NCBI GenBank assembly: GCA_009268125.1
Contig: WBOU01000004.1
Coordinates: 1 to 64,000 of the forward strand
Reading direction: 5' to 3'
DNA: 64,000 bases
Source: Chloroflexia bacterium SDU3-3
Lineage (GTDB): Bacteria; Chloroflexota; Chloroflexia; Chloroflexales; Roseiflexaceae
Shown here: piece after piece, positions 5,945-44,029 of the stretch
Position numbering within the stretch: the first letter of the stretch is position 1
Layout: every line of letters starts with the position of its first letter
Translations under genes and position numbers: made by a program
The notes under the pieces: model-generated
The model's input: the letters and a program-made list of their open reading frames with translations, nothing else
What the model was told of the DNA's origin: nothing
Database searches by the model: none

Positions 5945-6218
5945 GCACCTTCGCCGGATGGGATGGGCCGTTTGCGTCACGCCGGAAGCCGTTTGCGTCA
6001 CGCCGGAAGCCGTTTGCAGCACACCGGAACCCAATTGCAGCACACCGGAACCCAATTGCAGCACACCGGAACCCAATTGCAGCACCCCGGAACCCAATTG
6101 CGTCACCCCGGAACCCAATTGCAGCACACCGGAACCCAATTGCAGCACCCCGGAACCCAATTGCGTCACCCCGGAACCCAATTGCAGCACACCGGCCTCG
6201 ACCATCCAGCGAAGGTGC
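5945..6218. repeat. 21-bp tandem repeat array (11 units) between inverted arms
   Basis: Eleven 21-bp units run from 5967 to 6197 (core CCCAATTGC-RKCAC-MCCGGAA). Most differ only by AGCACA/AGCACC/GTCACC variants; the first three begin GCCGTTTGC. The array is bracketed by inverted arms: GCACCTTCGCCGGATGG at 5945-5961 and its complement with one mismatch at 6202-6218. The 65 bases to the right (6204-6270) match, in reverse orientation, the left flank of the similar array at 41 kb. Because 21 is a multiple of three and the unit has no stop, several reading frames stay open through it; I treat these as non-coding. Confidence 0.9.
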
Positions 6219-9830: not shown

Positions 9831-9903
9831 CCTGCGTCCTCTGCGCTTGTGCTACGATACGGCGATATGGCGCTATTGTACCCAAGATCGGGAGGTGATC
9901 GTT

Positions 9904-10731
9904 ATGTACCCATCACGCGACCGCGCGGCCACGCTGGGGCGCGAGGCGGCAGAGATCCTGCGCCAGGGCGGCTATCGCAGCCCGGGCGGGGCGGATGTGG
10001 AGCTGCGCCCACTGATCGAGCGCGCCAGGGCGGCGACCGAATCGTACCCCGCCGAGCGCGCGCTGCCCGCCGCCCAGCCGGGGGATCACCCGACGAGCAT
10101 TCGGGTGGTGAACGAGAGCACGCTGGCGGCGGCGCAGGGGCTGGTGGCCAGCGGTAGGCGCTGCGCCGTGCTGAACTTCGCCTCGGCGCGCAACCCCGGC
10201 GGCGGCTGGCTGGGTGGTGCCCGCGCCCAGGAGGAGTCGCTGGCGCGGGCCTCGGCGCTGGTGCCCTGCATCGAGGGCGACCCGATGTACGAGCGCCACC
10301 GCCACATGAGCGACGCGCTCTACACCAGCAGCCTGATCTACTCGCCCGATGTGCCGGTGTTCCGCGACGCGGCGGGCTTGCTGCTCGACACACCGTATCT
10401 GGTGGACTTCATCACCGCGCCCGCCGTGAACGCCGGGGTGGTGCTGGATCGCGCGCCCCAGCGCGGGCCGGAGATAGCGGCGGCCATGCGCGAGCGGGTG
10501 GGCCGCGTGCTGGCGGTGGCCGCAGCCCACGGCTGCCCGGCCCTGGTGCTGGGGGCATGGGGCTGCGGGGTGTTCCGCAACGACCCGGCGGCGGTGGCGA
10601 ACATGTTCGCCCAGGCGCTGGCCGGGCCGTTCCGGGGCGCGTTCGCCCAGGTGGTGTTCGCCGTGCTCGACTCCTCGGCGGAGCGGCGCTTCATCGGGCC
10701 GTTCGAGCGGGCGTTTGGAGGGCAACGTTAA
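9904..10731 (+). CDS. bacterial-type poly(ADP-ribose) glycohydrolase (TIGR02452 family)
   Basis: 275 residues with a macrodomain fold. The PARG signature is intact: NPGGG at 97-101, seven residues, then QEE at 109-111, whose second Glu is catalytic, followed by SLARASAL. The N-terminal helix region (TLGREAAEILRQGGY) is typical of this family. It should remove poly(ADP-ribose) or ADP-ribose from proteins in the cytosol. Start ATG at 9904, with GGGAGGTGATC upstream, an exceptionally strong ribosome binding site. The TAA stop is the first three bases of a dispersed TAACCACGAAG repeat. No PARP-like transferase is visible in the window. Confidence 0.9.
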   Translation: MYPSRDRAATLGREAAEILRQGGYRSPGGADVELRPLIERARAATESYPAERALPAAQPGDHPTSIRVVNESTLAAAQGLVASGRRCAVLNFASARNPGGGWLGGARAQEESLARASALVPCIEGDPMYERHRHMSDALYTSSLIYSPDVPVFRDAAGLLLDTPYLVDFITAPAVNAGVVLDRAPQRGPEIAAAMRERVGRVLAVAAAHGCPALVLGAWGCGVFRNDPAAVANMFAQALAGPFRGAFAQVVFAVLDSSAERRFIGPFERAFGGQR

Positions 10732-12021: not shown

Positions 12022-12095
12022 GGGGCCGTAGCTCAACGGAAGAACAATTGCCTTGCTCAGGCGAAAGGGTGAAGGTTCGAGTCCTTCCAGCCCCT
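12022..12095 (+). tRNA. tRNA-like gene, anticodon reads GCU (odd)
   Basis: Acceptor GGGGCCG pairs with CAGCCCC (one C-A mismatch), D-stem GCTC/GAAC (one C-A mismatch) with a 7-base loop, anticodon stem TTGCC/GGCGA, loop TTGCTCA, and T-arm GAAGG-TTCGAGT-CCTTC. The anticodon would be GCT at 12055-12057, that of serine, but the variable loop is short (6 bases) whereas bacterial tRNA-Ser has a long arm, and base 37 is C. It may be a decaying or reassigned tRNA. No CCA is encoded. A TATACT box at 12003-12008 may drive the array. Confidence 0.6.
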
Positions 12096-12101
12096 CCCGC
12101 T

Positions 12102-12173
12102 GGGACGGTAGCTCAAAGGAAGAGCGGCGGGTTCATAACCCGAGGGGTGGGGGTTCGAGTCCCCCGCGTCCCG
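12102..12173 (+). tRNA. tRNA with CAU anticodon (Met type)
   Basis: Acceptor GGGACGG/GCGTCCC (last pair G-G), D-stem GCTC/GAGC with loop AAAGGAA, anticodon CAT at 12134-12136, T-arm GGGGG-TTCGAGT-CCCCC. Three G-C pairs close the anticodon stem as in initiator tRNA, but bases 1 and 72 pair, unlike an initiator. Elongator Met or Ile2 are alternatives. No CCA encoded. Confidence 0.8.
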
Positions 12174-12189
12174 CCCAATCGACACATAC

Positions 12190-12262
12190 GGGGCTATAGC
12201 TCAAAGGAAGAGCAGCGCTCTGCAAAAGCGTATGGGTGGAGGTTCAAGTCCTCCTAGCCCCT
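12190..12262 (+). tRNA. tRNA-Cys (GCA)
   Basis: Acceptor GGGGCTA/TAGCCCC, D-stem GCTC/GAGC with loop AAAGGAA, anticodon stem GCGCT/AGCGT, loop CTGCAAA with GCA at 12222-12224, T-arm GGAGG-TTCAAGT-CCTCC. All stems pair. No CCA encoded. Confidence 0.88.
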
Positions 12263-12308
12263 CCCTCGCGGGAGCCTAGCGATCATCCCGCCCTAAGGTA
12301 GTATCTAG

Positions 12309-12380
12309 GGGGCTGTAGTTCAAGGGAAGAACGCCACCATGTCAAGGTGGAGCGTGGAGGTTCAAGTCCTTCCGGCCCCT
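12309..12380 (+). tRNA. tRNA-Asp (GTC)
   Basis: Acceptor GGGGCTG/CGGCCCC, D-stem GTTC/GAAC with loop AAGGGAA, anticodon stem CCACC/GGTGG, loop ATGTCAA with GTC at 12341-12343, T-arm GGAGG-TTCAAGT-CCTTC (one G-T pair). No CCA encoded. Confidence 0.88.
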
Positions 12381-12442
12381 CCCCCTGGGGACCGCGCCCA
12401 GGCAAAAGGCGCAGCCATACCAGCACGAGCGAGCGAGCGACG

Positions 12443-13890: not shown

Positions 13891-14829
13891 ATGGGAATCT
13901 ACGAGCACCCCGACACGATCGACGGCATCCGCATCACCGCCTGGGATGCGGAGAAGCCAGACCTGACCGGCGAGGCCTACTCGATCGCACTCGACTACGA
14001 CGATGGAGTGCGCGGCGCGACCTGGGTAGACACCTTCGCCGGGCTGCTAGAGGCCGTGCCCGGCGAGCAGATCCAGGGCATGGTGGTGGGCTGCTGGGAG
14101 GAGGCCTACGACGCCAATGGCGCAGCGGAGGCGATCGTGGAGGCGCTGGTGAGCGCCAGCGAGCAGCTGCCCAACCTGCGCGCCCTGTTTTTCGGCGACA
14201 TCACCGGCGAGGAGTGCGAGATCTCGTGGATCCAGCAGACCGACATCTCGCCGCTGTTTGGCGCGTTCCCGAAGCTGGAGTACCTGCGGGTGCGCGGCGG
14301 CGGCGGCCTGGCGGTAGGCAGCATCCGCCACGCCAGCCTGAAGACGCTGATCGTGGAGGCGGGCGGCCTGCCCAGCGCAGTGGTGCGGGCCTGCTGCGCC
14401 GCCGACCTGCCCGCGCTGGAGCACCTGGAGATCTGGCTGGGCACCGCCGAGTACGGCGGCGACGCCACGCCCGAAGATGTGGCCCCGCTGCTGGCCGGGC
14501 AGGGCTTCCCCAGCCTGCGCTACCTGGGCCTGCGCGACAGCGAGATCGTGGACCAGATCGCCCCGCTGGTGGCCAGCGCGCCGATTGTCGAGCGCATCCA
14601 GGTGCTGGATCTCTCGCTGGGCACGCTCACCGACGCGGGTGCGCAGGCCCTGCTCGAAAGCCCCGCCGTGGCCAAACTGCAGAAGCTCGACCTGCACCAC
14701 CACTACTGCTCGGATGCGATGATGGAGCGGCTGGCCAAGCTCGGGCCGGAGGTCGACCTGGACGATCAAGAAGAGACCGACGACGACGGCGACGGCGATG
14801 TGTGGCGCTACGTGGCGGTAAGCGAGTAG
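13891..14829 (+). CDS. STM4015 family LRR-like protein, copy 1
   Basis: 312 residues. Recognised as the STM4015 family: EQIQGMVVGCWEEAYD, LPNLRALFFGDITGEECEISWI near 95-115, then leucine-rich strands (LEYLRVRGG, LKTLIVEAGGL, LEHLEIWLGT, LRYLGLRDSEI, IQVLDLSLGTLTDAGAQAL, LQKLDLHHHYCSD). An acidic tail precedes a conserved WRYVAVSE end. It is the non-enzymatic member of the STM4011-STM4015 set and may be the substrate or scaffold for the ATP-grasp and radical SAM partners; that is inference. AAGGAG precedes the ATG. A second copy follows after 20 bases. Confidence 0.85.
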   Translation: MGIYEHPDTIDGIRITAWDAEKPDLTGEAYSIALDYDDGVRGATWVDTFAGLLEAVPGEQIQGMVVGCWEEAYDANGAAEAIVEALVSASEQLPNLRALFFGDITGEECEISWIQQTDISPLFGAFPKLEYLRVRGGGGLAVGSIRHASLKTLIVEAGGLPSAVVRACCAADLPALEHLEIWLGTAEYGGDATPEDVAPLLAGQGFPSLRYLGLRDSEIVDQIAPLVASAPIVERIQVLDLSLGTLTDAGAQALLESPAVAKLQKLDLHHHYCSDAMMERLAKLGPEVDLDDQEETDDDGDGDVWRYVAVSE

Positions 14830-14849
14830 CGAGAGCCAAGGAGGGGCCA

Positions 14850-15782
14850 GTGACCATCTACGAGCACGCAGACACTATCGACGGGCTGCCCGTCACCGAG
14901 TGGAACCCCGACGAGCCAGGCTGCGATGGTGTGGCCTACGCCATCCGCATCGACTACGACCAAGCCGAGGAAGGCCTCACCTGGGTCGATGTCTTCGCCA
15001 GCTTGCTCGACAGCGTGCCAAACGAGCAGATCCAGGGCATGGTGGTGGGATGCTGGGAAGAGGCTTTCGATAACGGCGCTTCCGAGGCCATAGTCGAGGC
15101 GTTGGTGAGCGCCAGCGAGCGTCTGCCCAACCTGCGCGCCCTGTTTTTCGGCGACATCACCGGCGAGGAGTGCGAGATCTCGTGGATCCAGCAGACCGAC
15201 ATCTCGCCGCTGTTTGGCGCGCTCCCGAAGCTGGAGTACCTGCGGGTGCGCGGCGGCGGCGGCCTGGCGGTGGGCAGCATCCGCCACGCCAGCCTGAAGA
15301 CGCTGATCGTGGAGACGGGCGGGCTGCCGGGCGATGTGGCGCGAGCCTGCTGCGCCGCCGACATGCCCGCGCTGGAGCACCTAGAGCTATGGCTGGGCAC
15401 CGAGCGCTACGGCGGCACCAGCGCGCCCGAGGATGTGGCCCCGCTGCTGGCAGGCCAGGGCTTCCCCAAGCTGCGCTACCTGGGCCTGCGCGACAGCGAG
15501 ATCGTGGACCAGATCGCCCCGCTGGTGGCCAGCGCGCCGATCACCCAGCGCATCCAGGTGCTGGATCTCTCGCTCGGCACGCTCACCGACGCGGGCGCGC
15601 AGGCCTTGCTGGAAAGCCCCGTCATCGCCAAGCTGCAGAAGCTCGATCTGCACCACCACTACTGCTCCGACGCGATGATGGAGCAGCTGTCCAAGCTCGG
15701 GCCGCAGGTGGATGTCAGCGATCAGCAGAAGCCCTACAACCACAGCGGCGAGCTGTGGCGCTACGTGGCGGTAAGCGAATGA
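14850..15782 (+). CDS. STM4015 family LRR-like protein, copy 2
   Basis: 310 residues with a GTG start, AAGGAGG (14838-14844) upstream. It differs from copy 1 mainly in the first 75 residues and the acidic region before the WRYVAVSE end. The middle is almost identical; 99 bases (15123-15221) match copy 1 (14167-14265) without a difference, which points to a recent duplication or gene conversion. The LRR-like strands and the HHHYCSDAMME segment are retained. The stop overlaps the STM4014 start. Confidence 0.85.
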   Translation: MTIYEHADTIDGLPVTEWNPDEPGCDGVAYAIRIDYDQAEEGLTWVDVFASLLDSVPNEQIQGMVVGCWEEAFDNGASEAIVEALVSASERLPNLRALFFGDITGEECEISWIQQTDISPLFGALPKLEYLRVRGGGGLAVGSIRHASLKTLIVETGGLPGDVARACCAADMPALEHLELWLGTERYGGTSAPEDVAPLLAGQGFPKLRYLGLRDSEIVDQIAPLVASAPITQRIQVLDLSLGTLTDAGAQALLESPVIAKLQKLDLHHHYCSDAMMEQLSKLGPQVDVSDQQKPYNHSGELWRYVAVSE

Positions 15783-16927
15783 AGGTGGTGGTCGTCGGCA
15801 ACCCCGGCAGCAGGCGGGTGGAGCTGCTCCAGGCCGCGCTGGCCGGGCTGGGCATGCCGCCCGCCGCGCTGGTGAGCTACGCCGACCTGCTGCAGGGTCG
15901 CGCCGAGCTGGCCCAGCACATGTGCGCAGGCGACCTGCTGCGCATCGAGTCGCCGGGGAAGGATGACGAGGTCGAGCGGCTGCTGCTGGCCGCAGGCGCG
16001 CGGGCCGCCGCCGAGGAGGGCGCGTTCGCGCATATGGACGCCCGGCAGCTGGCCGCGCTGGCCCACGAGAAGGGCGAGATCCTGCTGCCCCGCCAGTGGT
16101 ACCACGGCCTGCTGGCCGCGCTGGCCCTGCTGAAGCGCCAGATCGCAGCGTGCCCGCCCCACCGCGCCATGGCCGACCCCGACGACATCGCCGCCATGTT
16201 CGACAAGCCCGAGAGCCACCGCCGCATGCTGGCCGCCCAGGTGGCCGTGCCCCGCACCCTGGGCACGCCGCGCTGCTACGACGAGCTGTCCGAGGCCATG
16301 GCCCGCGAGCGCTGCCCCCGCGTGTTTGTGAAGTTGGCCCACGGCTCCAGCGCGTCGGGCGTGGTGGCCTACCAGGTGGGCGGCGGGCAGCACATGGCCA
16401 CCACCACGGTGGAGATGCAGCGCGGCGGCGATGGCGCGATCCGCCTGTTCAACAGCCGCCGCATCCGCAGCTACCGCGACCAGCGCGAGATCGCGGCGCT
16501 GATCGACGCGCTGTGCCGCCACCGCGCCCACGTGGAGCAGTGGCTGCCCAAGGCGGGCATGGCGGGCATGGCCTTCGACATGCGCGTGCTGGTGGTGGCA
16601 GGCCAGGCCCGCCACACGGTGGCCCGCATGAGCCGCAGCCCCATGACCAACCTGCACCTGCTGAACAGCCGGGGCGACGCGGGCGCGGTGGCTGAGCGCA
16701 TGGGCGGCGCGGCCTGGGCCGCCGCCATGGCCGCCTGCCAGCGGGCGGCGGCCTGCTTCCCGCGCAGCCTGCACGCCGGGGTCGACCTGCTGATCGCGCC
16801 CGACTTCCGCCGCCACGCCGTGCTGGAGATCAACGCGTTTGGCGACCTGCTGCCCGGCATCACCCACCAGGGGCACGACACCTACACCGCCGAGCTGCTG
16901 GCCGCGCTGGGGGAGGAGAGCCGCTAA
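15779..16927 (+). CDS. STM4014 family ATP-grasp protein
   Basis: 382 residues. N-terminal MKVVVVGNPGSRRVELLQ, then the ATP-grasp region: FDKPESHRRMLAAQ near 140, VFVKLAHGSSASGVVAY near 185, FDMRVLVVAG near 262, and VLEINAFGDLLPG near the end, where Glu-x-Asn binds magnesium. The family is expected to ligate a carboxylate to an amine using ATP. ATG overlaps the TGA of copy 2 (15779-15782), so the three genes are one operon. Its TAA stop is the first three bases of a TAACCACGAAGG dispersed repeat, so its original 3' end may have been altered. Confidence 0.87.
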   Translation: MKVVVVGNPGSRRVELLQAALAGLGMPPAALVSYADLLQGRAELAQHMCAGDLLRIESPGKDDEVERLLLAAGARAAAEEGAFAHMDARQLAALAHEKGEILLPRQWYHGLLAALALLKRQIAACPPHRAMADPDDIAAMFDKPESHRRMLAAQVAVPRTLGTPRCYDELSEAMARERCPRVFVKLAHGSSASGVVAYQVGGGQHMATTTVEMQRGGDGAIRLFNSRRIRSYRDQREIAALIDALCRHRAHVEQWLPKAGMAGMAFDMRVLVVAGQARHTVARMSRSPMTNLHLLNSRGDAGAVAERMGGAAWAAAMAACQRAAACFPRSLHAGVDLLIAPDFRRHAVLEINAFGDLLPGITHQGHDTYTAELLAALGEESR

Positions 16928-17090
16928 CCACGAAGGCGCGAAGGGCAGAACGATGTACCACCAAGGCTCCAAGACGCCAAGAAGGGGAAACCGTTAACCA
17001 CGAAGACGCGAAGGCACGAAGGGGATGAAAGAAGCGATTCATCACTAAGACGCGAAAGATTTTTACCACCAAGACACCAAGGAAACAAAC
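16925..17090. repeat. dispersed intergenic repeat, CCACGAAGACGCGAAGG family (two units)
   Basis: Begins with the STM4014 stop codon. Two tandem units: CCACGAAGGCGCGAAGG then ACCACCAAGGCTCCAAGA, and a second CCACGAAGACGCGAAGG with ACCACCAAGACACCAAGG. Confidence 0.8.
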
Positions 17091-17103
17091 GGTAATAGAA
17101 AAT

Positions 17104-17400
17104 GGCGATGGGCCAGCCCTCCCCACCCGGCCCATGCGGCGAAGGTGCCGCAGAAGTTTTGATGGCCATATGCACGAACACCAGCAGCCAGGAAATGGCA
17201 CTGGAACGCCTAAAATTGGGGGTTCGAAGGGGGCATCGTCCCCTCGCGGGGTTCATAGGGGCCAGCCCCTATGAACCCCGCGTAGGGCACACACAACCAA
17301 TCACGAGGAACCATTATCATCGAAGCGCCAACGGTCGGCCCGACCGGGCAACGCTGCAAGCATTGCCTACGGTCGACCTATCTCGACCCCACCCGAAAAG
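17104..17400. repeat. palindromic dispersed element, GGCCATATGCACGAACACCAG family, copy 1
   Basis: Contains GATGGGCC...GGCCCATGCGGCGAAGG (the arms that flank the 21-bp arrays elsewhere, here without an array), then GGCCATATGCACGAACACCA, then a strong hairpin (GGGGTTCATAGGGGC at 17256-17270 with its complement just after) and a segment AAGCATTGCCTACGGT shared with the 41.6 and 41.8 kb copies. It fills the gap between STM4014 and the EVE-like gene. Confidence 0.75.
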
Positions 17401-17429
17401 CACACAGCGCTATGCGCAAGGAGGCCCAC

Positions 17430-17987
17430 ATGAGCGTGCGACTGCTGAGCGACCCACACGGGCTATTCTACGATATCTTCGACATGTTCGAGTCGGCACT
17501 GGATGGTGAGCAGTGGACCGACCGCTGGCCATGCGGCGCAAACCGCAAGATCGCCGTGGGCGACACGGCCTTTATCGTGGTGGCGGGCGAGCAGGGCAGC
17601 CCGGCGATCTTCGCCCGCGCCCAGGTCATCGCTGCCGACGAGCGCGACCAGGTGCGGCTGCTCGACCCGGATAGCGCCGACCTGAGCGAGGCCTACTGCC
17701 GCAACGTGCTGGGGGCCGACCCGCAGATCCTGTTTGTGCGCATCGTGGTCGACAGCGTGGTGAACCCCTTCGCCGCCGACGCCGAGGGCGAGGATCTGGA
17801 GGAGCTGCTGGCCCTGGCCGAGCTGGACCAGCCCGCATGCGTGGGCACCGACCTGCCCGCCATGGCGCTCTCCGGCGAGGCGCTGCCGGAGGCCTGCGCC
17901 GCCCTGGTGCAGGAGCGCTGGGAGGGCCAGATCATCGCGCGCGAGCCGCACGGCAAGGCCACCCGGCTGCCCACCAAGGAGGAGTAG
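17430..17987 (+). CDS. EVE/PUA-like domain protein, unknown
   Basis: 185 residues. 'WPCGANRKIAVGDTAFIVVAGEQ', 'PAIFARAQVIAAD' and a following beta-rich section resemble EVE/PUA-like domains, which bind modified bases in nucleic acids; the C-terminal third is acidic then basic and unassigned. The ATG at 17430 has AAGGAGG upstream and is preferred over an in-frame ATG six codons earlier. It stands between the two halves of the STM401x cluster. The domain assignment is by pattern only. Confidence 0.55.
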   Translation: MSVRLLSDPHGLFYDIFDMFESALDGEQWTDRWPCGANRKIAVGDTAFIVVAGEQGSPAIFARAQVIAADERDQVRLLDPDSADLSEAYCRNVLGADPQILFVRIVVDSVVNPFAADAEGEDLEELLALAELDQPACVGTDLPAMALSGEALPEACAALVQERWEGQIIAREPHGKATRLPTKEE

Positions 17988-18291
17988 CGGGCAGAACTCA
18001 CTCAATGATCACGATGCAACCCCACAGTTATAGGGGCGGATTTTATGTCCGCCCACAGTGCATTGTATGCATCGGATGCCACACGATGAGTCAATGCACC
18101 CAATAAACCATAGCGGGCGGGCACGAGATCCGCCCCTACGGCATTGTGGAATGCAGCAATATCGATGGATTAGGCTCGACCCAATTTCCATTCCTGATCC
18201 CTGCCCTTATTCATGATGCCCCAAATAGCACCGCACCCGCACATCCGTACTATAATACAGGGGTACAGCCAATCTTTTAAGGAGGCACCCC
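17988..18291. other. intergenic region with an inverted repeat pair and a promoter
   Basis: Two inverted arms, TAGGGGCGGATTTTATGTCC at 18031-18050 and a diverged complement within 18115-18138, each also able to fold on itself (GGGCGGA/TCCGCCC). They lie about 60 bases apart and look like the ends of a small non-autonomous element. A TATAAT box at 18251-18256 and AAGGAGG at 18279-18285 belong to the following CMD gene. No coding sequence seen. Confidence 0.6.
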
Positions 18292-18615
18292 ATGTCGCAG
18301 CCAAAACCCGCCATCAGCAACGCCTTCCAGCTCTTCCTCAGCGAGGCACCCGCGCACGCCCAGGCCTGGATGGCCGCCGTGCACGGCCTCGACGAGGCCA
18401 GCGCGCTCGACAAGAAGACTGAGGAACTGGCCTACATCGCCGTGCTGGCCGCGCTGCGGATGGAGTCGGGCATCCCCTTCCACGTGCAGAGCGCCAAGCA
18501 GGCCGGGGCCTCGCGCGGCGAGGTGGTGAGCGCGGTGCTGCTGGGCCTACCCGCCGCAGGCAACGGCGTCACCCAGTCGCTACCCGCCGCGCTGGCCGCG
18601 TACGACGCGGAGTAG
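18292..18615 (+). CDS. carboxymuconolactone decarboxylase (AhpD-like) family protein without the CxxC
   Basis: 107 residues with the all-helical CMD fold: LDKKTEELAYIAVLAALRM, then FHVQSAKQAGASRGEVVSAVLL. In AhpD-type proteins the first segment ends in CxxC before a conserved His; here those positions read M-E-S-G and the His is kept. It therefore cannot act as a disulfide-based peroxidase partner. Role unknown. Strong AAGGAGG before the ATG and TATAAT at 18251. Confidence 0.78.
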   Translation: MSQPKPAISNAFQLFLSEAPAHAQAWMAAVHGLDEASALDKKTEELAYIAVLAALRMESGIPFHVQSAKQAGASRGEVVSAVLLGLPAAGNGVTQSLPAALAAYDAE

Positions 18616-18638
18616 GCACCGCAGAAAACCACCCCGCC

Positions 18639-18657
18639 TGTGACACAACCTGTCACC
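18639..18657. promoter_or_regulatory. palindrome site 2, upstream of the methyltransferase-STM4013 operon
   Basis: TGTGACA-CAACC-TGTCACC: 13 of 14 arm bases fit TGTGACA-N5-TGTCACA. It ends 57 bases before the methyltransferase ATG at 18715. Confidence 0.6.
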
Positions 18658-18714
18658 GCCGCGCGGTACGATAGGGCCATCACGAGCACATACAGACATG
18701 GAGCAAGAGACGCG

Positions 18715-19353
18715 ATGACATCCCTACGCGAGCGGTGGACAAGCTACATCGACCGGCAGCACCAGCAGCCGAGCGGGCCAGTCGGGCGGGTGATCGGCGA
18801 GCGCATGGTGCGGCAGCACGCCCCCGAGAACGCCTGGGCCATGCGGCTGCTGCAGATCGGCGCGGGCGACCGCGTGCTGGATCTGGGCTGCGGGCCGGGC
18901 CTGGGGCTGGCGCTGGCGCTGCAGTGCAGCCTGTGCGAGCACATCGTGGGGCTGGATCTCTCCCCCACGATGCTGCGCTCCTCGGCGCGGCGCAACCGCG
19001 CGGCCCTGGCCGAGGGGCGGCTGGCGCTGATGCGCGGCGACCTGGCCTCGCTGCCGCTGCGCGACGCGCAGTTCGACAAGGTGCTGAGCATCCACACGCT
19101 CTACTTCTGGCCCGAGCCCATGGCGGTGTTCCAGCGGATCATCGGGCTGCTGGCCCCTGGCGGGCGCAGCGCCACCATCTTCGCCACGGCCCGCACCGAG
19201 CCGACGGGCGAGCGCACCTACTGGCCGCTGCACGCCCAGGCCGCCGCGCTGGCGGAGGAACTGGGCCGCACGCCCGGGGTGCGCGCCCAGCTGGCCACCG
19301 GCCCCGACTCGCGCCAGTTCAACAACCTGGCGATCGTGCTAGAGAGGCGGTGA
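18715..19353 (+). CDS. class I SAM-dependent methyltransferase
   Basis: 212 residues. Motif I VLDLGCGPGLGLALAL near 56-71, motif II HIVGLDLSPTML, motif IV VLSIHTLYFWPEP near 122, and LLAPGGRSA: a Methyltransf_11 domain resembling those acting on small molecules or quinones. The ATG at 18715 is chosen (GGAGCAAGAG upstream); an earlier in-frame ATG is possible. Four bases separate its stop from STM4013, so it is likely part of the STM401x pathway here. Confidence 0.8.
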   Translation: MTSLRERWTSYIDRQHQQPSGPVGRVIGERMVRQHAPENAWAMRLLQIGAGDRVLDLGCGPGLGLALALQCSLCEHIVGLDLSPTMLRSSARRNRAALAEGRLALMRGDLASLPLRDAQFDKVLSIHTLYFWPEPMAVFQRIIGLLAPGGRSATIFATARTEPTGERTYWPLHAQAAALAEELGRTPGVRAQLATGPDSRQFNNLAIVLERR

Positions 19354-19357
19354 GCCA

Positions 19358-20164
19358 ATGGACGCAAACAAGCTCGTGGGCAGCCACGACATCGTGCTGA
19401 TCACCCTCGACACCCTGCGCTACGATGTGGCCGCAGCCGAGCTGCGCGAGGGTCGCACGCCCAACCTGGCCACGCTGCTGCCCGCAGGCGGCTGGGAGAA
19501 GCGCCACACGCCCGGCAGCTTCACCTACGCCGCACACCAGGCCTTCTTCGCGGGCTTCCTGCCCACGCCCGCCGCGCCGGGGCGGCACCCGCGCCTGTTC
19601 GCCGCGCGCTTCGCCGGCAGCGAGACCACGGCGGAGGGTACCTTCGTCTTTGACGAGGCCGACATGGTGAGCGGGCTGGCCACACAGGGCTACCACACTA
19701 TCTGCGTGGGCGGGGTGGGCTTCTTCAACAAGCAGAACGCGCTGAGCAGCGTGCTGCCCGGCCTGTTCGCCGAGAGCCACTGGTCGCCCGCGCTGGGCGT
19801 GACCGCGCCCGACTCGACGGCCAGCCAGGTGCGGGTGGCGCTCGACGCGCTGGCCCGCCAGCCGAGGGGGCGGCGGGTGTTCCTGTTCATCAACGTGTCG
19901 GCACTGCACCAGCCCAACCGCATGTACCTGCCCGGCGCGCAGGAGGACAGCCTAGAGAGCCACGCCGCCGCCCTGGCCTATGTGGACAGCCAGCTGCCGC
20001 CGCTGGTAGAGGCGCTGCGGCGGCGCGGCCCCTCGCTCTGGGTGATCTGCGCCGACCACGGCACGGCCTACGGCGAGGATGGCTACACCGGCCACCGGAT
20101 CAACCACCCGGTGGTATGGGAGGTGCCCTACGCCGAGTTCGTGCTGCCGGAGGTGCGCGCATGA
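19358..20164 (+). CDS. STM4013/SEN3800 family hydrolase (alkaline phosphatase superfamily)
   Basis: 268 residues. IVLITLDTLRYD at 12-23 supplies the first metal Asp, and CADHGTAYGEDGYTGHRINH near 230-250 supplies the Asp-His and distal His of the alkaline phosphatase/sulfatase superfamily. The Cys-x-Pro-x-Arg sulfatase signature is absent, so it is not a formylglycine sulfatase; SFTYAAHQAF occupies the nucleophile region and may provide Thr or Ser. It is the recognised third member of the STM4011-4015 set. The stop overlaps the STM4012 start (ATGA). Confidence 0.87.
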   Translation: MDANKLVGSHDIVLITLDTLRYDVAAAELREGRTPNLATLLPAGGWEKRHTPGSFTYAAHQAFFAGFLPTPAAPGRHPRLFAARFAGSETTAEGTFVFDEADMVSGLATQGYHTICVGGVGFFNKQNALSSVLPGLFAESHWSPALGVTAPDSTASQVRVALDALARQPRGRRVFLFINVSALHQPNRMYLPGAQEDSLESHAAALAYVDSQLPPLVEALRRRGPSLWVICADHGTAYGEDGYTGHRINHPVVWEVPYAEFVLPEVRA

Positions 20165-21480
20165 CCCGACCCATCGACGAGATCGAGCGCGTGCCCTACC
20201 GCTCCTACGCCTACGCCTACCCGCACAAGACGGCCTACCGCCGCTTCGAGCGGCCCATCCCGCTGCGCGATCTGTGGGCGCAGGAGCAGCGTGATGCCCT
20301 GTTTCTGTACATGCACATCCCCTTCTGCGAGATGCGCTGCGGCTTCTGCAACCTGTTCACCACCGTGAACCCGGCCATCGACATCGAGCGGGCCTACATG
20401 GACACGCTGGAGCGCCAGGCCGCCCAGGTGCGCGAGGCGCTGGGCCAGGCCCAGTTTGCGCGCTTCGCCATCGGCGGGGGCACCCCGACCTACCTGCCCC
20501 CCGCCGACCTGCACCGCCTGTTCGACATCGCCGAGCGCGGGTACCGCGTGCGCCCCCACGACATCCCGGTCTCGGTCGAGACCTCGCCCAAGACCGCCGA
20601 CGCCGAGCGGCTGGCCGTGCTGCGCGAGCGCGGGGCCGACCGCATCAGCATCGGCGTGCAGAGCTTTATCGAGCGCGAGGCCGCCGCCGCAGGCCGCCCG
20701 CAGAAAACCGCCGATGTGGAGCGAGCGCTCGACCGCATCCGCTCGTTCGGCTTCCCCACGCTGAATATCGACCTGATCTACGGCATCGACGGCCAGACCG
20801 TGGCGAGCTGGCTGGAGACGCTGCGCGCGGCCTTGCGCTACCAGCCCGAGCAGCTCTACCTCTACCCGCTGTATGTGCGCCCGCTCACCGGCCTTGGCCG
20901 CAGGCAGCGCGAGTGGGACGACGTGCGGCTGGCCTGCTACCGCGCCGGGCGCGACTTCCTGCGCGAGCATGGCTATGTGCAGCTCTCCATGCGCATGTTC
21001 CGCTCGCCCACAGCCCCGGCGGGCGAGGGGCCGGTCTACTGCTGCCAGCAGGATGGCATGGTCGGCCTGGGCTGCGGGGCCAGGTCGTACACCAGCGCCG
21101 CCCACTACTCCAGCGAGTACGCCGTGGGCGCGACGGGCGTGCGCGCCATCCTGGCCGACTACATTCGGCGCGACGACGCCTCATTCGCCAGCGCGCACTA
21201 CGGCTTCCTGATGGGCCAGGATAACTCGCGCCGCCGCTACGTCATCCAGTCGCTGCTGCAGGCCGAGGGGCTGGACATGGCGGCCTACCAGGCCCGCTTC
21301 GGCGGCGCGGCCACCGCGCACCTGCCCGAGCTGGCTGCGCTGGCCGAGCGCGGCATGGCCACGCTCTCGCCCGAGCGCATGCGGCTCACCGAGCGCGGCA
21401 TGGAGCTTTCCGACGCCATCGGGCCGTGGCTCTACGCCGAGTCTGTGCAGCGGCAGATGGAGGAGTTCGACCTCACATGA
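20161..21480 (+). CDS. STM4012 family radical SAM protein (HemN/HemW-like)
   Basis: 439 residues. The cluster-binding CX3CX2C is C56, C60, C63 (FCEMRCGFCN), followed by GGGTPTYLP (from 105), SVETSPKT and RISIGVQSF, the pattern of HemN/HemW-type radical SAM enzymes. A C-terminal winged-helix-like region starts near 350. It is not HemN itself; the family is named from Salmonella STM4012 and is uncharacterised. Substrate unknown; linked genes suggest a modified peptide, lipid or LRR protein. ATGA overlaps on both sides. Confidence 0.9.
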   Translation: MTRPIDEIERVPYRSYAYAYPHKTAYRRFERPIPLRDLWAQEQRDALFLYMHIPFCEMRCGFCNLFTTVNPAIDIERAYMDTLERQAAQVREALGQAQFARFAIGGGTPTYLPPADLHRLFDIAERGYRVRPHDIPVSVETSPKTADAERLAVLRERGADRISIGVQSFIEREAAAAGRPQKTADVERALDRIRSFGFPTLNIDLIYGIDGQTVASWLETLRAALRYQPEQLYLYPLYVRPLTGLGRRQREWDDVRLACYRAGRDFLREHGYVQLSMRMFRSPTAPAGEGPVYCCQQDGMVGLGCGARSYTSAAHYSSEYAVGATGVRAILADYIRRDDASFASAHYGFLMGQDNSRRRYVIQSLLQAEGLDMAAYQARFGGAATAHLPELAALAERGMATLSPERMRLTERGMELSDAIGPWLYAESVQRQMEEFDLT

Positions 21481-22370
21481 ATCTGAGCATCCTCTACCGT
21501 GGCCCGCTCTCAAGCTGCAACTACGGCTGCAGCTACTGCCCCTTCGCCAAACACACCGAGACCCGCGCCGAGCACGAGCGCGATAGGCAGGCGCTGGAGC
21601 GCTTCGTGGGCTGGGTGGGCGAGCGGGCGGGCGACACCATCTCGGTGTTCTTCACGCCCTGGGGCGAGGCCCTGAACCGCAGGCGCTACCAGATGGCCTT
21701 CGTGGCGCTGACGAACATGCCGCACGTGGCCAAGGTGGCCATTCAGACCAACCTCTCCTCGCGGCTCGACTGGCTGGAGCGATGCGACAAGGCGCGGGTG
21801 GGCATCTGGGCCACCTACCACCCCACGCAGGTGGCGCGGGCCAGCTTTGTGGGAAAGTGCCGCGAGCTGCTGCGGCGCGGCGTGCGGCTGAGCGTGGGCG
21901 TGGTGGGCATGAAGGAGCACGAGGCCGAGATCGAGGCCCTGCGGGCCGAGCTGCCGCCCGAGATCTACCTGTGGGTGAACGCCTACAAGCGCGAGCCGGG
22001 CTACTACAGCGCCGAGGATGTGCGCCGCCTCACCGCCGTCGACCCGCTCTTCCCCGTGAACAACCAGCGCCACCCCAGCGCTGGCCAGCCCTGCGACGCG
22101 GGCGAGACCGTGATCTCGGTCGACGGCGACGGCACCATGCGCCGCTGCCACTTCATCAAGCAGCCGATTGGCAACATCTACGACCCCGGCTTCGCCCAGG
22201 CGCTGCGCCCGCGCCCCTGCGCCAACGAGACCTGCGGCTGCCACATCGGCTACATCCACATGCCCCACCTGGGCCTCCAGCAGGTCTTCGGCGACGGCCT
22301 GCTGGAGCGGGTTCCCCATAACCCTATCTGGCTTGAACCAAACCACGAAGACACGAAGACGCGAAGGTAA
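21477..22370 (+). CDS. STM4011 family radical SAM protein
   Basis: 297 residues. CX3CX2C at C14, C18, C21 (CNYGCSYCP). The last third has further cysteines (QPCDAGE, RRCHF, RPCANETCGCH), suggesting an auxiliary Fe-S cluster as in SPASM-like enzymes. The last nine residues, NHEDTKTRR, and the TAA are encoded by the start of a dispersed CCACGAAGACACGAAG repeat, so the native C-terminus has been replaced. It closes the STM4013-4012-4011 operon. Confidence 0.88.
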   Translation: MNLSILYRGPLSSCNYGCSYCPFAKHTETRAEHERDRQALERFVGWVGERAGDTISVFFTPWGEALNRRRYQMAFVALTNMPHVAKVAIQTNLSSRLDWLERCDKARVGIWATYHPTQVARASFVGKCRELLRRGVRLSVGVVGMKEHEAEIEALRAELPPEIYLWVNAYKREPGYYSAEDVRRLTAVDPLFPVNNQRHPSAGQPCDAGETVISVDGDGTMRRCHFIKQPIGNIYDPGFAQALRPRPCANETCGCHIGYIHMPHLGLQQVFGDGLLERVPHNPIWLEPNHEDTKTRR

Positions 22371-22446
22371 AAAGAGCTCGCCTCAGCAAAAAAGAAGGCT
22401 CGAAGATTCTTAAGAATCTTCGAGCCTTCGCGTCTTCGTGGTTAAA
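22338..22446. repeat. dispersed repeat pair enclosing a 36-base perfect palindrome (bidirectional terminator)
   Basis: A plus copy of CCACGAAGACACGAAGAC (22341-) and a minus copy CCTTCGCGTCTTCGTGG face each other. Between them 22394-22429 is a perfect palindrome with GAAGGCTCGAAGATTCTT as its left half. It lies between the convergent STM4011 and DUF6745 genes and probably ends transcription of both. Confidence 0.8.
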
Positions 22447-22451
22447 AATCC

Positions 22452-23558
22452 CTACGTCTCCACGATAGGGTGGTAGTCGTTGGGGTTGTCGAAACCAGCG
22501 ATCCAGGCGGCGGCCTGGTGGCATGTGCGCATCGTCGGCGGCACGCGGATGAGGTACTGCCGCCCGGTGGAGGGGCACAGCACCGCCACGCACACCAGCG
22601 GCTCGTCGCCCTCCAGCTCCACGCGCAGCAGCCGCCGCTCGCCGCCCGGGTCGGTATCGGTATCGAGCGTGGTGGCCTCGGCCTCGGCCAGGAAGCGCTC
22701 GTAGCCCATGCGCTCCAGCAGCACGCGGCGCAGCTCGGCGTTCTGCTCGGCCAGCACCTCGGCGGCGGTGATCGTCTCGGGCTGGAAGGCCACGCGCGGC
22801 TCGATCGGCACGCCGCGCCAGCGCAGCTGCGCCCCGCGCGCGGCCACAGGCAGCCAGCCGATCTGTGTGCCCGCGATGTCCAGCCACGAGGTGATGGTCA
22901 GCTCGGCGGGCAGGTCGCTCAGGGCCTCGCAGCCGCTCACATCCAGCTGCGAAAGCTCGCGCAGCCAGGGCGGCAGGGTGGTCAGGCGCAGGCAGCCCCG
23001 CGCATTCAGCCGCCCCACCCGCACGGCGGCCTGCTGCGGCCAGCGCGCCAGCCGCGTGCAGCCCGCGATGTCCAAAAAGTAGACATCCAGCCCCTCGGGC
23101 AGCTGCTCTAGCGCGGTGCAGTCGCGCAGGATGAGCGAGCCGACCTTCAGCCCCTCGGGCAGCTCGGTGAGGCTGGCGCTGCCCTCAAGGTCGAGGCGGT
23201 AGCCCACGCGCAGGCTGGCGGGCAGCCTACGCAGCGTGGTGCTGCGCGCCACCAGCTCGTAGCACTGCAGGCCCTCGGGCAGGGCCTCCAGCGCGGTGCA
23301 GCCGCTCACATTGAGGCGGCGCACCTTCAGCCCGGGCGGCAGAGCGCGCAGGCTGGTGCAGCCGCTCACATCCAGGCTATCGGCGGCGAGGTCGGCGGGC
23401 AGCTCGGTGCGGGTGGGGTTATTGGCCAGCGAAAGATGGCCCTTCACCACCAGCCCGGCCAGCTCGCTCGCCGGGCGCTGGTTCAGCAGCTTCTGGGCGT
23501 CCTCGGCGCGCATGGGCTGGCCGGGCGTGAACGCAGGCTCGTGGTTCTTCTTGCTCAC
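22452..23558 (-). CDS. LRR-like protein with C-terminal DUF6745-like domain
   Basis: About 368 residues from a GTG at 23558; an ATG at 23513 is an alternative start. Residues 50-245 are a run of short repeats (LDVSGCTSLRALP, LNVSGCTALEALPEGL, LDIAGCTRLARWP), each a 20-22 residue leucine-rich unit like those of effector LRRs. The last 110 residues (NAELRRVLLERMGYERFL, then LVCVAVLCPSTGRQYLIRVPP) resemble DUF6745. It starts 8 bases after the 98-aa gene, and the pair sits under palindrome site 3. No enzyme motif is seen; it probably binds a partner. Confidence 0.72.
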   Translation of the reverse strand: MSKKNHEPAFTPGQPMRAEDAQKLLNQRPASELAGLVVKGHLSLANNPTRTELPADLAADSLDVSGCTSLRALPPGLKVRRLNVSGCTALEALPEGLQCYELVARSTTLRRLPASLRVGYRLDLEGSASLTELPEGLKVGSLILRDCTALEQLPEGLDVYFLDIAGCTRLARWPQQAAVRVGRLNARGCLRLTTLPPWLRELSQLDVSGCEALSDLPAELTITSWLDIAGTQIGWLPVAARGAQLRWRGVPIEPRVAFQPETITAAEVLAEQNAELRRVLLERMGYERFLAEAEATTLDTDTDPGGERRLLRVELEGDEPLVCVAVLCPSTGRQYLIRVPPTMRTCHQAAAWIAGFDNPNDYHPIVET

Positions 23559-23566
23559 GGGCGCGC

Positions 23567-23863
23567 CTAGTCCACGATCCGGCGGATGGCGGTGGGCGTG
23601 TACTCGCGCTGCATCCAGACACGGTAGAGGCCGCGGCCCAGGGTGATCGGCTTGTGCTCCTCGTGGATGACCGTCGCGCTCTCGGCGGTGACATGCAGGA
23701 ACAGCATGCCGCCGTGCTCCCACAGCTGGGCGCTGCGCGGATCTTGGATGCGGTGGCTGTGGCCAGTGATCTCGCCGTAGGCCAGAACGGTATTGGGCTG
23801 AAGCTTCGCGCCCTCGGGGATCGCGGGGGCGGCTGCGATCATCACATCACCATGTCGCCACAT
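23567..23863 (-). CDS. 98-aa conserved protein of the DUF6745 pair
   Basis: 98 residues, no membrane segment. GDVMIAAAPAIP, LAYGEITGHSHRIQDP, ATVIHEEHKPITL and GLYRVWMQREYTP are conserved-looking blocks rich in His and Glu, suggesting a small beta-barrel (cupin-like) that may bind metal. I recall this protein next to DUF6745 genes in other bacteria, but know no function. AAGGAGG before the ATG. Confidence 0.7.
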   Translation of the reverse strand: MWRHGDVMIAAAPAIPEGAKLQPNTVLAYGEITGHSHRIQDPRSAQLWEHGGMLFLHVTAESATVIHEEHKPITLGRGLYRVWMQREYTPTAIRRIVD

Positions 23864-24262: not shown

Positions 24263-26266
24263 CTAGACCTGGGCCACAGCGTCGGCGGCGAGCGCGGCCA
24301 CGCGGGCCAGGGCCAGGGCGGCGCGGGCGGCAGGCGCGGCATCCCAGCGGATGCGGTGTGCCTTCTCGTCGAGCAGGGCGGCCAGCAGCTCGGCGGGGGC
24401 CAGGGCGTGGCGAAAGCCCAGCTGGCTGCCCTGCTGGACCAAGGCGCGCCAGCGCTGGGCCATGCGCGCGTCGGCGCGGGCTAGACCCACCACCAGCAGC
24501 TCGCCCAGCGCCTCGTCCACCTGCTCCCAGTAGTCGGCCAGCGGGTCGCGGGTGTGGGGCTGGGATGCGGGGCTAGGGCCGAGCGCGGCCATGCTGGGGA
24601 TGTCGGGGGCAACCCAGGGCAGCAGAGCGCTGCGCATCGGGCCATCCTGAAACACCAGGGCGGTGGGCGCGAACACGGGGCCGCCGGGGCCAAGCCGCGC
24701 GCGCCCGGCCACAAAGCGCAGCGCGTCGGGCTGATCGCGCAGCCTGGCCAGCAGCTGCTCGGCCCCGCCGCGCCCGCGCGCGGTGTAGGGGTGGATCAGG
24801 GCCGCCGCCGCGCCCGCGCTGTCCACCAGCGTGGCCTGCACCTCCTGGGTGGCTGGGTTAAAGCTGGCATCGCGGCAGCCCGCCACCGCGCACACAAACA
24901 GGCCATCGGCCAGCACGCGCGGGCGCAGCGCCGCAGGCGGCAGCGCGGCCAGCCGCGCCGACAGCTCGGCGAAGTCCTCGGCCAGCAGCGGGGCGTGCAG
25001 GCGCTCCCAGGTGTAGTGCTGCGGGCTGACCGCGATCTGGCCAGCCGGGGCGTAGCTGCCGTTGGGCTGCCTGCGCCCGCCGCGCACCAGCGCCTGCCCC
25101 CCGCCGAAGGCCGCCAGGCTTGCGCCGCGCGTCACGGTCTGCTGGGCCAGCTGCCACAGCGCGGGCGGCTGCTTGGCCGGGTCGGTGGGGTCATCCCAGC
25201 TGCGCGGGATGGCGATCATCGCGCCAGTCGCGGCATCCTGCATATAGGCCACCAGCTCCACCCCGCCGCGTCGGAAGCGCGCCGAGCAGCCCAGCCCGAT
25301 CAGATGGGCCGAGCGCAGCGCGGTCTCGTGGTCGCTGGCCGAGCCGCGGATGAACAGCTGCGGCACCGCGCCGGTGCCAGCGCGGATGGCGTCGGCCCGC
25401 AGGCACAGCTCGCCCACCAGCGCGGCGGCCTCGCCGGGGCTGAAGCGGGCATCGTGGCGCTCGTAGGCTGCGTGCAGCAGCGCCAGCTCGGCCAGCGTGT
25501 CGGCGGGCCAGATCAGGCCCTGCTCGCGACAGCGCAGATCCAAGCGGCGCAGACGCTCGACCAGCGGCTGGGGCGCGGCGCTCAGGCCGCACGCGGCCAG
25601 CTCGGCCAGGGCCGCGTCGAGCGCGTCCAGCAGCGGCAACGGGGCCTCGCCCGCGCTAGGCGCGGTCTCCACCACCCCGCTGGCGGCGGCGGCATCCAGC
25701 AGGCGGAAGGCCCACACCGCCAGGGCCGCATGGCGGCAGGGCGCAGCCTCGGCGCAGTCGCAGTGGGTGTAGCGCAGGTCGCCGGGCACCAGAAAGCGCA
25801 CCGTGCAGGCCAGCGAGTGGATGGTGGCGCTCGGCTTGGCGCTGCGCACCAGCTCCACCACGTGCCCCGCCTCATAGGCGTGCCTGGCCCACGTGAGCGC
25901 GGCCCGCGAGAGCTGCGCGCCGATCTCCACATCCGCGATCTGGCCAGGATCCCAAGGGCCGCTGGGCGCGGCGAGCGCACCCGCCTGCTGGACGTGCTGC
26001 TGCTGGTAGGCCAGCGCCGAGCGCAGCAGGTGGCGGCAGATCCCGCTGGACGCGCAGCTGCAGCGCCCGCCGCCTAGCGTCACGCCACCCGGCAGATCGC
26101 ACGCCACCCCATCCGACCAGCGCACCGTCACATTCTGCTCGGCATCCTCTTCCAGCTCGTAGCTCAGGTCGCCCGACTGCAGCTCCTGCAGGGCGCGCTT
26201 CAGCAGACCGCGGTTGGCCAGCAGCGCCATATCGTCGTGGGTGAGCGCAAGAAGGTCGGCGCGCAT
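24263..26266 (-). CDS. SWIM zinc finger protein (YehQ-like), two CxCxnCxH motifs
   Basis: 667 residues. The SWIM motif is C69-x-C71...C77-x-H79 (CSCASSGICRH). A second, CDCAEAAPCRH at 169-179, has exactly the same spacing, which is unusual. The remainder is Ala/Leu-rich, with an 'LLPWVAPDIPSMAALGP' segment near 570 and no enzyme motif. E. coli YehQ is the analogous SWIM protein next to MoxR, VWA and DUF5682 genes. It starts one base after the VWA gene stop and ends the operon. SWIM domains bind DNA or proteins through zinc. Confidence 0.85.
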   Translation of the reverse strand: MRADLLALTHDDMALLANRGLLKRALQELQSGDLSYELEEDAEQNVTVRWSDGVACDLPGGVTLGGGRCSCASSGICRHLLRSALAYQQQHVQQAGALAAPSGPWDPGQIADVEIGAQLSRAALTWARHAYEAGHVVELVRSAKPSATIHSLACTVRFLVPGDLRYTHCDCAEAAPCRHAALAVWAFRLLDAAAASGVVETAPSAGEAPLPLLDALDAALAELAACGLSAAPQPLVERLRRLDLRCREQGLIWPADTLAELALLHAAYERHDARFSPGEAAALVGELCLRADAIRAGTGAVPQLFIRGSASDHETALRSAHLIGLGCSARFRRGGVELVAYMQDAATGAMIAIPRSWDDPTDPAKQPPALWQLAQQTVTRGASLAAFGGGQALVRGGRRQPNGSYAPAGQIAVSPQHYTWERLHAPLLAEDFAELSARLAALPPAALRPRVLADGLFVCAVAGCRDASFNPATQEVQATLVDSAGAAAALIHPYTARGRGGAEQLLARLRDQPDALRFVAGRARLGPGGPVFAPTALVFQDGPMRSALLPWVAPDIPSMAALGPSPASQPHTRDPLADYWEQVDEALGELLVVGLARADARMAQRWRALVQQGSQLGFRHALAPAELLAALLDEKAHRIRWDAAPAARAALALARVAALAADAVAQV

Positions 26267-26267
26267 G

Positions 26268-27389
26268 CTAGGCCACCTTCTGCGCGACCCACGCGGCCAG
26301 CTCGCCGGGGGTCATCGCGCCCACATGCGCGCCCAGCTTCACCAGCTGGGCGGCCACGCCGTGGTCGTAGCGGGGGCTGGCGTCGCTCTCCAGCGCGGCC
26401 AGCCCCAGCAGTGTCACGCCGCTCTCGGTCAGATATTTCACCGCGCTGTAGAGCTGCTGCACCGGCGCGCCCTCCTCGAAATCGCTGATCAGCACCACGA
26501 TAGTGCGGCGCGGGTTTTCCACCAGCTGGGCCGCGTAGCGCACCGCCTGCCCGATGTCGGTGCCGCCGCCCAGCTGCACCTTCATCAGTGTCTCCACCGG
26601 GTCGGTGCAGTGCTCGGTCACATCCACCACCGAGGTATCGAACAGCACCAGGTGGGTGCGCAGCGCCTGGATGCCGAAGAAGATCGCCGCCGTCACCGCC
26701 GCGTGGATGACGCTGCCCGCCATGCTGCCCGACTCATCCACCAGGATGATCAGCTGCCAGCGGTCGACCTGGCGTCGCACGCGCGAGAAGAAGTAGGGCT
26801 GGCCGATCACGATCTGCTGGCGCTGCGGGTCGTAGTTGGCCAGGTTGCGGCGGATGGTGGTGCGGGCGTCGAAATTGCGCGCCACCCGCAGGAACGAGCG
26901 GCGGCGGCGGTCGACCGCGCCGCTGAAGGGCGTGCGGATCTCGCGGGCCAGCTGCTCCATCAGCTGCTGCACCACGGCGTTCACCAGGCGGCGGGCCTGG
27001 GCCAGCACCTCCTGGTTCATCAGGTGCTTGGTGCGCAGCACGGCCTTCAGCAGCGTCTGGTTCGGCTGGGCGCGCTTTAGCAGCTCGGGGTTGGTCACCA
27101 TCTCCTCAAGCTGGTAGCGGTCAAGCGCGTCGCGCTCGATCCGCTCGATGGTGCGGCGCGGGAACAGCTCGTGCACCATATTGATCCAGTCGGGCACCGT
27201 CAGCTGCGAGGCATCCAGCGAGCCGTGCCCCGCGCGGGTGTTGCGATCTGCACCATACTCGCGGTCGTAGAGGTAGCCCAGCGCGGTGTCGCGGCCCTGC
27301 CACTCGCCCTGCAGCCCGCCCAGCGCCTGCTCGCTGCTCTCGCCCAGCACCAGCCGCCAGCGCTGCCGCCGCTCCTGCTCGCTATCCAT
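26268..27389 (-). CDS. VWA domain protein (YehP-like)
   Basis: 373 residues. The C-terminal VWA domain (from about 210) has a complete MIDAS: D218-x-S220-x-S222 (ILVDESGSMAGS), LGGGTD with the Thr, and ISDFEEGA with the Asp. The N-terminal 200 residues are helical and basic. The start overlaps the DUF5682 stop by 8 bases. VWA proteins of this group act with MoxR ATPases as chaperone-like or metal-insertion machines; the E. coli equivalents are YehP and YehL. Confidence 0.9.
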   Translation of the reverse strand: MDSEQERRQRWRLVLGESSEQALGGLQGEWQGRDTALGYLYDREYGADRNTRAGHGSLDASQLTVPDWINMVHELFPRRTIERIERDALDRYQLEEMVTNPELLKRAQPNQTLLKAVLRTKHLMNQEVLAQARRLVNAVVQQLMEQLAREIRTPFSGAVDRRRRSFLRVARNFDARTTIRRNLANYDPQRQQIVIGQPYFFSRVRRQVDRWQLIILVDESGSMAGSVIHAAVTAAIFFGIQALRTHLVLFDTSVVDVTEHCTDPVETLMKVQLGGGTDIGQAVRYAAQLVENPRRTIVVLISDFEEGAPVQQLYSAVKYLTESGVTLLGLAALESDASPRYDHGVAAQLVKLGAHVGAMTPGELAAWVAQKVA

Positions 27390-42617: not shown

Positions 42618-42619
42618 CG

Positions 42620-43912: not shown

Positions 43913-44029
43913 ACACGCTCCTACTGCTCATCGATATGTTTGATATGTTGTCAGAAAAAGAGCACCCTTACTGCCCTCTCGATCAAAACAACACAACTAC
44001 TGTCTTCACATATACTGTATTGCGTGCTC

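Follow-up and report, generated by a model that had tools for sequence, protein, structure and literature searches.

The STM4011-STM4015 gene set and its interruption

The DNA analysed here (the window) comprises the first 64,000 nucleotides of contig WBOU01000004.1 of Chloroflexia bacterium SDU3-3, and it encodes a set of genes from the five protein families named STM4011 to STM4015. As claimed in an original prediction, all five families were present and intact, with STM4015 represented twice, and all six genes (6/6) far exceeded the curated NCBIfam cut-off of their own family. The genes lie on the plus strand, beginning with STM4015 copy a, a leucine-rich repeat (LRR) protein of 312 residues that we propose as a carrier or substrate (13891-14829; NF038076, 366 bits against a cut-off of 275), for which there is a solved homologue (2ra8, E 5e-89). 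STM4015 copy b has 80% identity to copy a (14850-15782; 359 bits) and is followed by STM4014, an ATP-grasp ligase resembling LysX, ArgX and RimK (15779-16927; NF038074, 420 bits, cut-off 175). After a gap come STM4013, a hydrolase of the alkaline-phosphatase superfamily (19358-20164; NF038075, 425 bits, cut-off 250), STM4012, a HemN-like radical S-adenosylmethionine (SAM) enzyme (20161-21480; NF006067, 628 bits, cut-off 380), and STM4011, a further radical SAM enzyme (21477-22370; NF038073, 406 bits, cut-off 200). Stop and start codons overlap at the STM4015b/STM4014, STM4013/STM4012 and STM4012/STM4011 boundaries. The five NCBIfam families are hypothetical equivalogs of which the window genes are clear members, and the catalogue gives no function for them.

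The residues expected for catalysis were intact in the window proteins, namely the radical SAM Cys triads, the ATP-grasp Lys, Asp, Glu and Asn, and the Asp, Thr and His of the alkaline-phosphatase type. STM4012 carries its triad as C56-x3-C60-x2-C63, and its profile matched HemN (1olt, E 4e-55) and NocN (9p2u, E 1e-36) in the PDB. In STM4011 the triad (C14-x3-C18-x2-C21) is accompanied by five more conserved Cys residues in a SPASM-like C-terminal region; the SPASM model PF13186 was matched weakly in 17 of 33 STM4011 members (best E 7e-4), and the window protein gave no match at E 0.1. Conservation and PDB profile matches indicated that STM4013 has the metal ligands of its superfamily, with Thr at the nucleophile position in 98% of members (T56 in the window protein). 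The roles of these individual residues, as metal ligands and nucleophile, are ones that we assume from knowledge of the superfamily. The Thr led us to reject STM4013 as a formylglycine sulfatase matured by the radical SAM enzymes, as such a protein would have the Cys or Ser of C/S-x-P/A-S-R at this position. We also rejected a defence system, as there was no relevant PADLOC match and the sole one was weak, to the radical SAM domain of STM4012.

The set is split in the window, as had been predicted, by dispersed repeats and three genes. Repeats of the AACCACGAAGACGCGAAGG type occur in 7 copies in the window, where 0 are expected; one forms the left side of the gap (16926-17014, plus strand) and further copies lie near 10730, at 22341-22443 and near 40899. 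The three genes, all on the plus strand, encode a 191-residue open reading frame of no known family by profile scans (17412-17987), a carboxymuconolactone decarboxylase (CMD)-family protein (18292-18615; PF02627, E 6e-13) and a class I SAM-dependent methyltransferase (18640-19353; PF08241, E 2e-18). The methyltransferase stop codon (19353) does stand 4 bases before the STM4013 start (19358) on the same strand, and the original prediction had regarded this gene as an addition to the set.

To compare neighbourhoods, profiles built from the window proteins were used to scan 80 more loci from bacterial genomes and 12 from plasmid records. Including the window, this gave 93 loci with STM4013, of which 70 had all five families. 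None of the other 92 STM4013 loci had the methyltransferase, the CMD protein or the 191-residue open reading frame beside the set, and the sole other methyltransferase match near a set was weak and 4 kb distant (L100). In a related Chloroflexota genome (L007) STM4014 directly precedes STM4013. The nearest relatives of the methyltransferase (53-57% identity) are encoded elsewhere in related genomes, away from the set and with no CMD homologue beside them. Because the three genes adjoin the set in the window only, among 93 loci, they are a private insertion at this locus, outside the system, and the closeness of the methyltransferase to STM4013 is by chance, the neighbourhood outcome that the original prediction had named as refuting its methyltransferase claim. 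The position of the methyltransferase favors a genuine tailoring role for it, together with the CMD protein, within the set. Such a role is highly improbable, however, given the gene's lack of conservation, the location of its closest relatives and the repeats at the edge of the insertion; on the neighbourhood data we ruled out the methyltransferase as a tailoring enzyme.

The C-terminus of STM4015 and the fold of STM4014

The C-terminus was strongly constrained among STM4015 homologues. Glu was the exact last residue in 108 of 111 STM4015 sequences, and each of the 75 loci with STM4015 had at least one copy ending in Glu. The three sequences ending otherwise were additional ones, each from a locus where another copy does end in Glu; these (L104:4684-5793, L089:14157-15614 and L097:13579-14868) are natural controls. 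Both window copies end in the tail RYVAVSE (14806-14826 in copy a and 15759-15779 in copy b, plus strand), and its terminal Glu is the attachment site we propose. The consensus before the Glu is R-[YF]-x-A-[VLI]-x. The linker preceding the tail is variable in length and sequence and is rich in Asp and Glu (32%, compared to 15% in the body of the protein); despite it, E312 of copy a was among the 16 most informative columns of the protein. The Arg and Tyr of the tail can be replaced while the Glu is kept, as in Salmonella (MNAMYTE) and Bacteroides (YYPMITE), and in 2ra8, the solved homologue from Bacteroides, the chain shows this same end ahead of an expression tag, the tag being deduced from chain length. 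Full-length STM4015 copies unlinked to the set kept the tail in most cases, and remote LRR proteins were without it. There was no such C-terminal constraint in STM4014, STM4013 or STM4011; the C-terminus of STM4012 was constrained (mostly Arg or Lys), with no linker.

The fold of STM4014 was predicted with confidence (AlphaFold2, predicted local distance difference test (pLDDT) 95.2), and the solved structures closest to the model were ligases whose target is the C-terminal Glu of a partner. The first Foldseek match was ArgX bound to LysW (1.9e-12), and the top eight VIA-align matches were all ArgX, LysX or RimK (Z 22.3-23.5 over 262-276 residues, root-mean-square deviation 2.9-3.2), with glutathione synthetase the next row (Z 21.8). 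RimK and LysX also headed the PDB matches of a profile of 45 STM4014 members (E 3e-4 to 1.5e-3). HHalign gave a probability of 95% against LysX/RimK vs 76% against D-Ala-D-Ala ligase (Ddl), and paired the STM4014 motif SPMTNLH with the LysX motif HWITN, as well as the Mg-binding E-x-N. The HHalign comparison was with LysX/RimK and Ddl; comparison genomes for ATPgrasp_ST were not found in this phylum. STM4014 was present in all 30 set-bearing genomes searched; in two of these (G347 and G357) it was on a different contig than STM4013.

Recurrent partners and distribution

Two genes just past STM4011, which the original prediction had missed, belong to an extended set. These encode, on the minus strand, a protein with LRR and DUF6745 parts (22452-23558; PF20530, E 5e-25) and a 98-residue, all-beta protein with invariant GHxH, HxEH and QREY motifs (23567-23863), which was always found beside DUF6745. 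Of the 70 complete loci, 37 had the DUF6745 gene and that for the protein of about 100 residues in linkage with the set, invariably paired and in several arrangements. A strict two-gene module was seen in the window and in L060, L061, L065, L066, L068, L071, L072, L095 and L121, and the DUF6745 protein of Actinomycetota has no LRR part. Among 301 Chloroflexota genomes, the small protein was present in all 8 with a true STM4013 vs 5 of 293 others (hypergeometric p 8e-13), and at the genus level in 3 of 3 vs 5 of 176 others (p 6e-5), values that should be read with caution, as relatedness among genomes violates independence. In six of the set-bearing Chloroflexota genomes, all of one genus, the pair was present but unlinked to the set. 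The small protein is an accessory of the set, because only 17 of 30 set-bearing genomes of various phyla have it; it was missing from the myxobacteria tested among these. Its AlphaFold2 model (pLDDT 88) had no clear PDB match (best VIA Z 3.3), and it belongs to no known family.

Another recurrent partner, a HAD-family hydrolase, was coupled to STM4013 in 15 other loci, from myxobacteria, planctomycetes and betaproteobacteria among others, and its gene usually overlaps or touches the STM4013 start. Since this hydrolase is coupled to STM4013, phosphate chemistry is likely a theme of the system. STM4013 homologues of 46-49% identity also occur without the rest of the set, in L063 (8989-9783) and in Kitasatospora (L067), a locus that carries no annotation. 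In the former, from Streptomyces albidoflavus, the homologue is accompanied by a radical SAM protein, a thymidylate-kinase-like protein and a NUDIX hydrolase, a neighbourhood that is a second context for the STM4013 family.

The set was found in Chloroflexota, Actinomycetota, Myxococcota, Planctomycetota, Cyanobacteria, Deinococcota, Pseudomonadota (Salmonella included), Bacillota and Bacteroidota. Among 5,426 E. coli genomes no record matched the Salmonella-type set. In a Salmonella plasmid record, pCFSAN003307 (L064), glnA, typA and ompL accompany the STM4011-4015 set, and STM4013 is also present in AFYI01000005.1, which is filed as a phage. Both are probably chromosomal sequences whose records were mislabelled or misassembled. 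Searches of the open-access literature (subscription papers were outside the search) found no functional study of the set, with STM4013 and STM4015 mentioned once each, in lists, no mention of DUF6745, and no paper joining radical SAM, ATP-grasp and leucine-rich repeat with ribosomally synthesized and post-translationally modified peptides (RiPPs) or a gene cluster. The DUF6745/98-residue pair, the HAD partner and the rule of the STM4015 C-terminal Glu were not found stated anywhere searched.

Elsewhere in the window, a row of four tRNA genes (Ser, Met, Cys and Asp) lies upstream of the set (12022-12383), as does a gene for a microbial-type PARG (ADP-ribose glycohydrolase-like) protein (9892-10728; PF10021, E 2e-43). 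On the minus strand at 24263-27407, a gene for a SWIM zinc-finger protein adjoins one for a VWA/CoxE-like protein; a VWA gene near the set was also seen in Deinococcus taeanensis (L060), possibly by chance. Tandem repeat arrays with units of 21 bp, 166 bp and 65 bp are present at 5972-6195, 41061-41276, 41516-41835 and 47268-47481, and GC content dips to 55% at 42001-44000.

Proposed protein-tethered biosynthesis on a leucine-rich repeat carrier

Based on the invariant C-terminal Glu and the LysX/ArgX/RimK-like fold of STM4014, we propose that this Glu is the site at which STM4015 is loaded. The LRR protein would serve as a carrier, STM4014 would activate its C-terminal Glu and join to it an amine-bearing building block, and the SPASM-like STM4011, the HemN-like STM4012 and the phosphoesterase STM4013 would then have the attached group as their substrate. 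In some lineages the HAD phosphatase, or DUF6745 with the 98-residue protein, may take part. We consider the odds roughly even (a probability of about 0.5) that the STM4011-STM4015 set is a protein-tethered biosynthesis or modification system with STM4015 as a LysW-like carrier. The original prediction had likewise read the ATP-grasp protein and the two radical SAM enzymes as parts of an undescribed biosynthetic or protein-modification system, a reading which stood when its added methyltransferase did not, and had named STM4015 as a possible substrate, for which the tail and the STM4014 fold now suggest a specific residue.

The closest parallel is with the amino-group carrier proteins: LysW accepts an amine at the gamma-carboxylate of its C-terminal Glu, and the group so attached is the substrate of further enzymes (PMC9303977). 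LysX (or ArgX) and LysW, including the Streptomyces amino-group carrier protein system (Vzb22, DADH), resemble STM4014 and STM4015 in having an ATP-grasp ligase of the same fold and a partner whose last residue, following an acidic stretch, is an invariant Glu. They differ in that STM4015 is an LRR protein of ~310 residues ending in RYxAVxE, whereas LysW is a zinc ribbon of ~55 residues ending in EDWGE, and in that the STM set has radical SAM and phosphoesterase enzymes where the Lys system has LysZ, LysY, LysJ and LysK. LysX and, next to it, a LysW-type carrier with the end EDWGE are encoded in the genome of the window as well (G000:C22:33161-33976, L240), a pair that provides a within-genome comparison for STM4014/STM4015. 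Pearlin pathways (3-thiaglutamate, TglA/TglB) likewise build their products at the C-terminal end of a carrier polypeptide, and one of them includes a radical SAM methyltransferase (PMC9303977). Their likeness to our proposal is in this chemistry on a carrier C-terminus; they differ in using a tRNA-dependent ligase, not an ATP-grasp enzyme, and a short peptide.

Several observations weigh against the carrier proposal. No LysK-like releasing hydrolase was found in the STM4011-STM4015 set. With a second alignment the RimK and LysX matches of STM4014 weakened to E 0.02, the Z margin of ArgX, LysX and RimK over other ATP-grasp enzymes was less than 2, and the graspetide ligase PsnB was also high among the Foldseek matches. 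Pfam matches to ATPgrasp_ST were found in 35 of the 45 STM4014 members and to YheC/D in 29, as opposed to 7, all weak, for RimK. For this reason we do not claim membership of the RimK family for STM4014, proposing from its modelled fold that it works like LysX/RimK; the window protein likewise had no NCBIfam rimK_fam match (RimK-family models PF08443/TIGR00768). One near-full-length unlinked STM4015 copy (L191) was without the tail. Finally, a conserved C-terminus is no proof of ligation, because fixed ends were also found in the 98-residue protein (Asp in 38 of 38) and DUF6745 (Thr in 35 of 38), in both cases with no linker.

These points bear on several other explanations. The absence of a visible releasing enzyme would fit a simple C-terminal tagging, in which the STM4015 Glu is permanently extended by STM4014 with one or several amino acids and nothing is released, in the manner of RimK and ribosomal protein S6. 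RimK is among the nearest solved folds and, like STM4014 as proposed here, has the ATP-grasp fold and a C-terminal Glu acceptor. However, STM4014 is longer, with inserted segments, its acceptor would be an LRR protein, and radical SAM enzymes are encoded alongside; tagging would leave two radical SAM enzymes and a phosphoesterase unexplained in 70 complete sets, and we consider it unlikely. The fixed ends of other members, for which no ligation is known, could instead indicate that the STM4015 tail is a docking tag, with STM4015 a scaffold holding the enzymes while the product of STM4014 is a small molecule that stays free. Protein binding is the usual function of LRR domains, in keeping with such a role. 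Docking motifs, however, usually tolerate residues beyond them, and 97% of STM4015 sequences stop right at the Glu, the only near-invariant part of the tail, so that docking too is doubtful.

Two further alternatives are a RiPP-like and a graspetide-like pathway. In a RiPP-like pathway, the LRR domain would be an oversized leader and the tail RYxAVxE a core altered by the radical SAM enzymes, for example at the Tyr, and then cut off. SPASM-like regions are typical of peptide-modifying radical SAM enzymes, and STM4011 shares CxxxCxxC and SPASM-like C-terminal Cys residues with the SPASM peptide maturases (SkfB, PqqE and relatives), to which its similarity is weak (SkfB, E 0.018) and from which it would differ, in the carrier proposal, by a protein-tethered substrate. 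In addition, the Tyr at -6 is 80% conserved. However, Tyr and Arg are replaced in the sole STM4015 copies of several lineages (Phe in L061, L072 and L123, Ser or Asn in Methylobacterium, and Asn in Salmonella), leaving the Glu as the only constant, and there was no peptidase among the recurring neighbours of the set. We thus give a RiPP-like pathway little credence, and the same replacements of Tyr make a Glu-Tyr crosslink in the tail like that of pyrroloquinoline quinone (PQQ) unlikely. In a graspetide-like pathway STM4014 would form side-chain ester or amide rings within STM4015, and PsnB is among its best Foldseek matches. The core of a graspetide pairs a conserved acidic residue with a Ser, Thr or Lys partner. 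None of these three is conserved in the last 12 residues of STM4015 (Lys 0-3%, Ser 28% or less), which thus lack a nucleophile, and we dropped this very improbable explanation.

Returning to tethered biosynthesis, we speculate, more tentatively, that with its LRR scaffold STM4015 represents a carrier protein of a new class. Its C-terminal Glu would be loaded by an ATP-grasp ligase, and two radical SAM enzymes would rebuild the attached group to give a novel small molecule or cofactor, across bacteria ranging from Chloroflexota to Salmonella. As our prediction names a residue, an enzyme and partner genes, a set known by its locus numbers alone can now be tested by mass spectrometry. If the prediction is correct, an LRR carrier and radical chemistry would join the short list of carrier-protein pathways.

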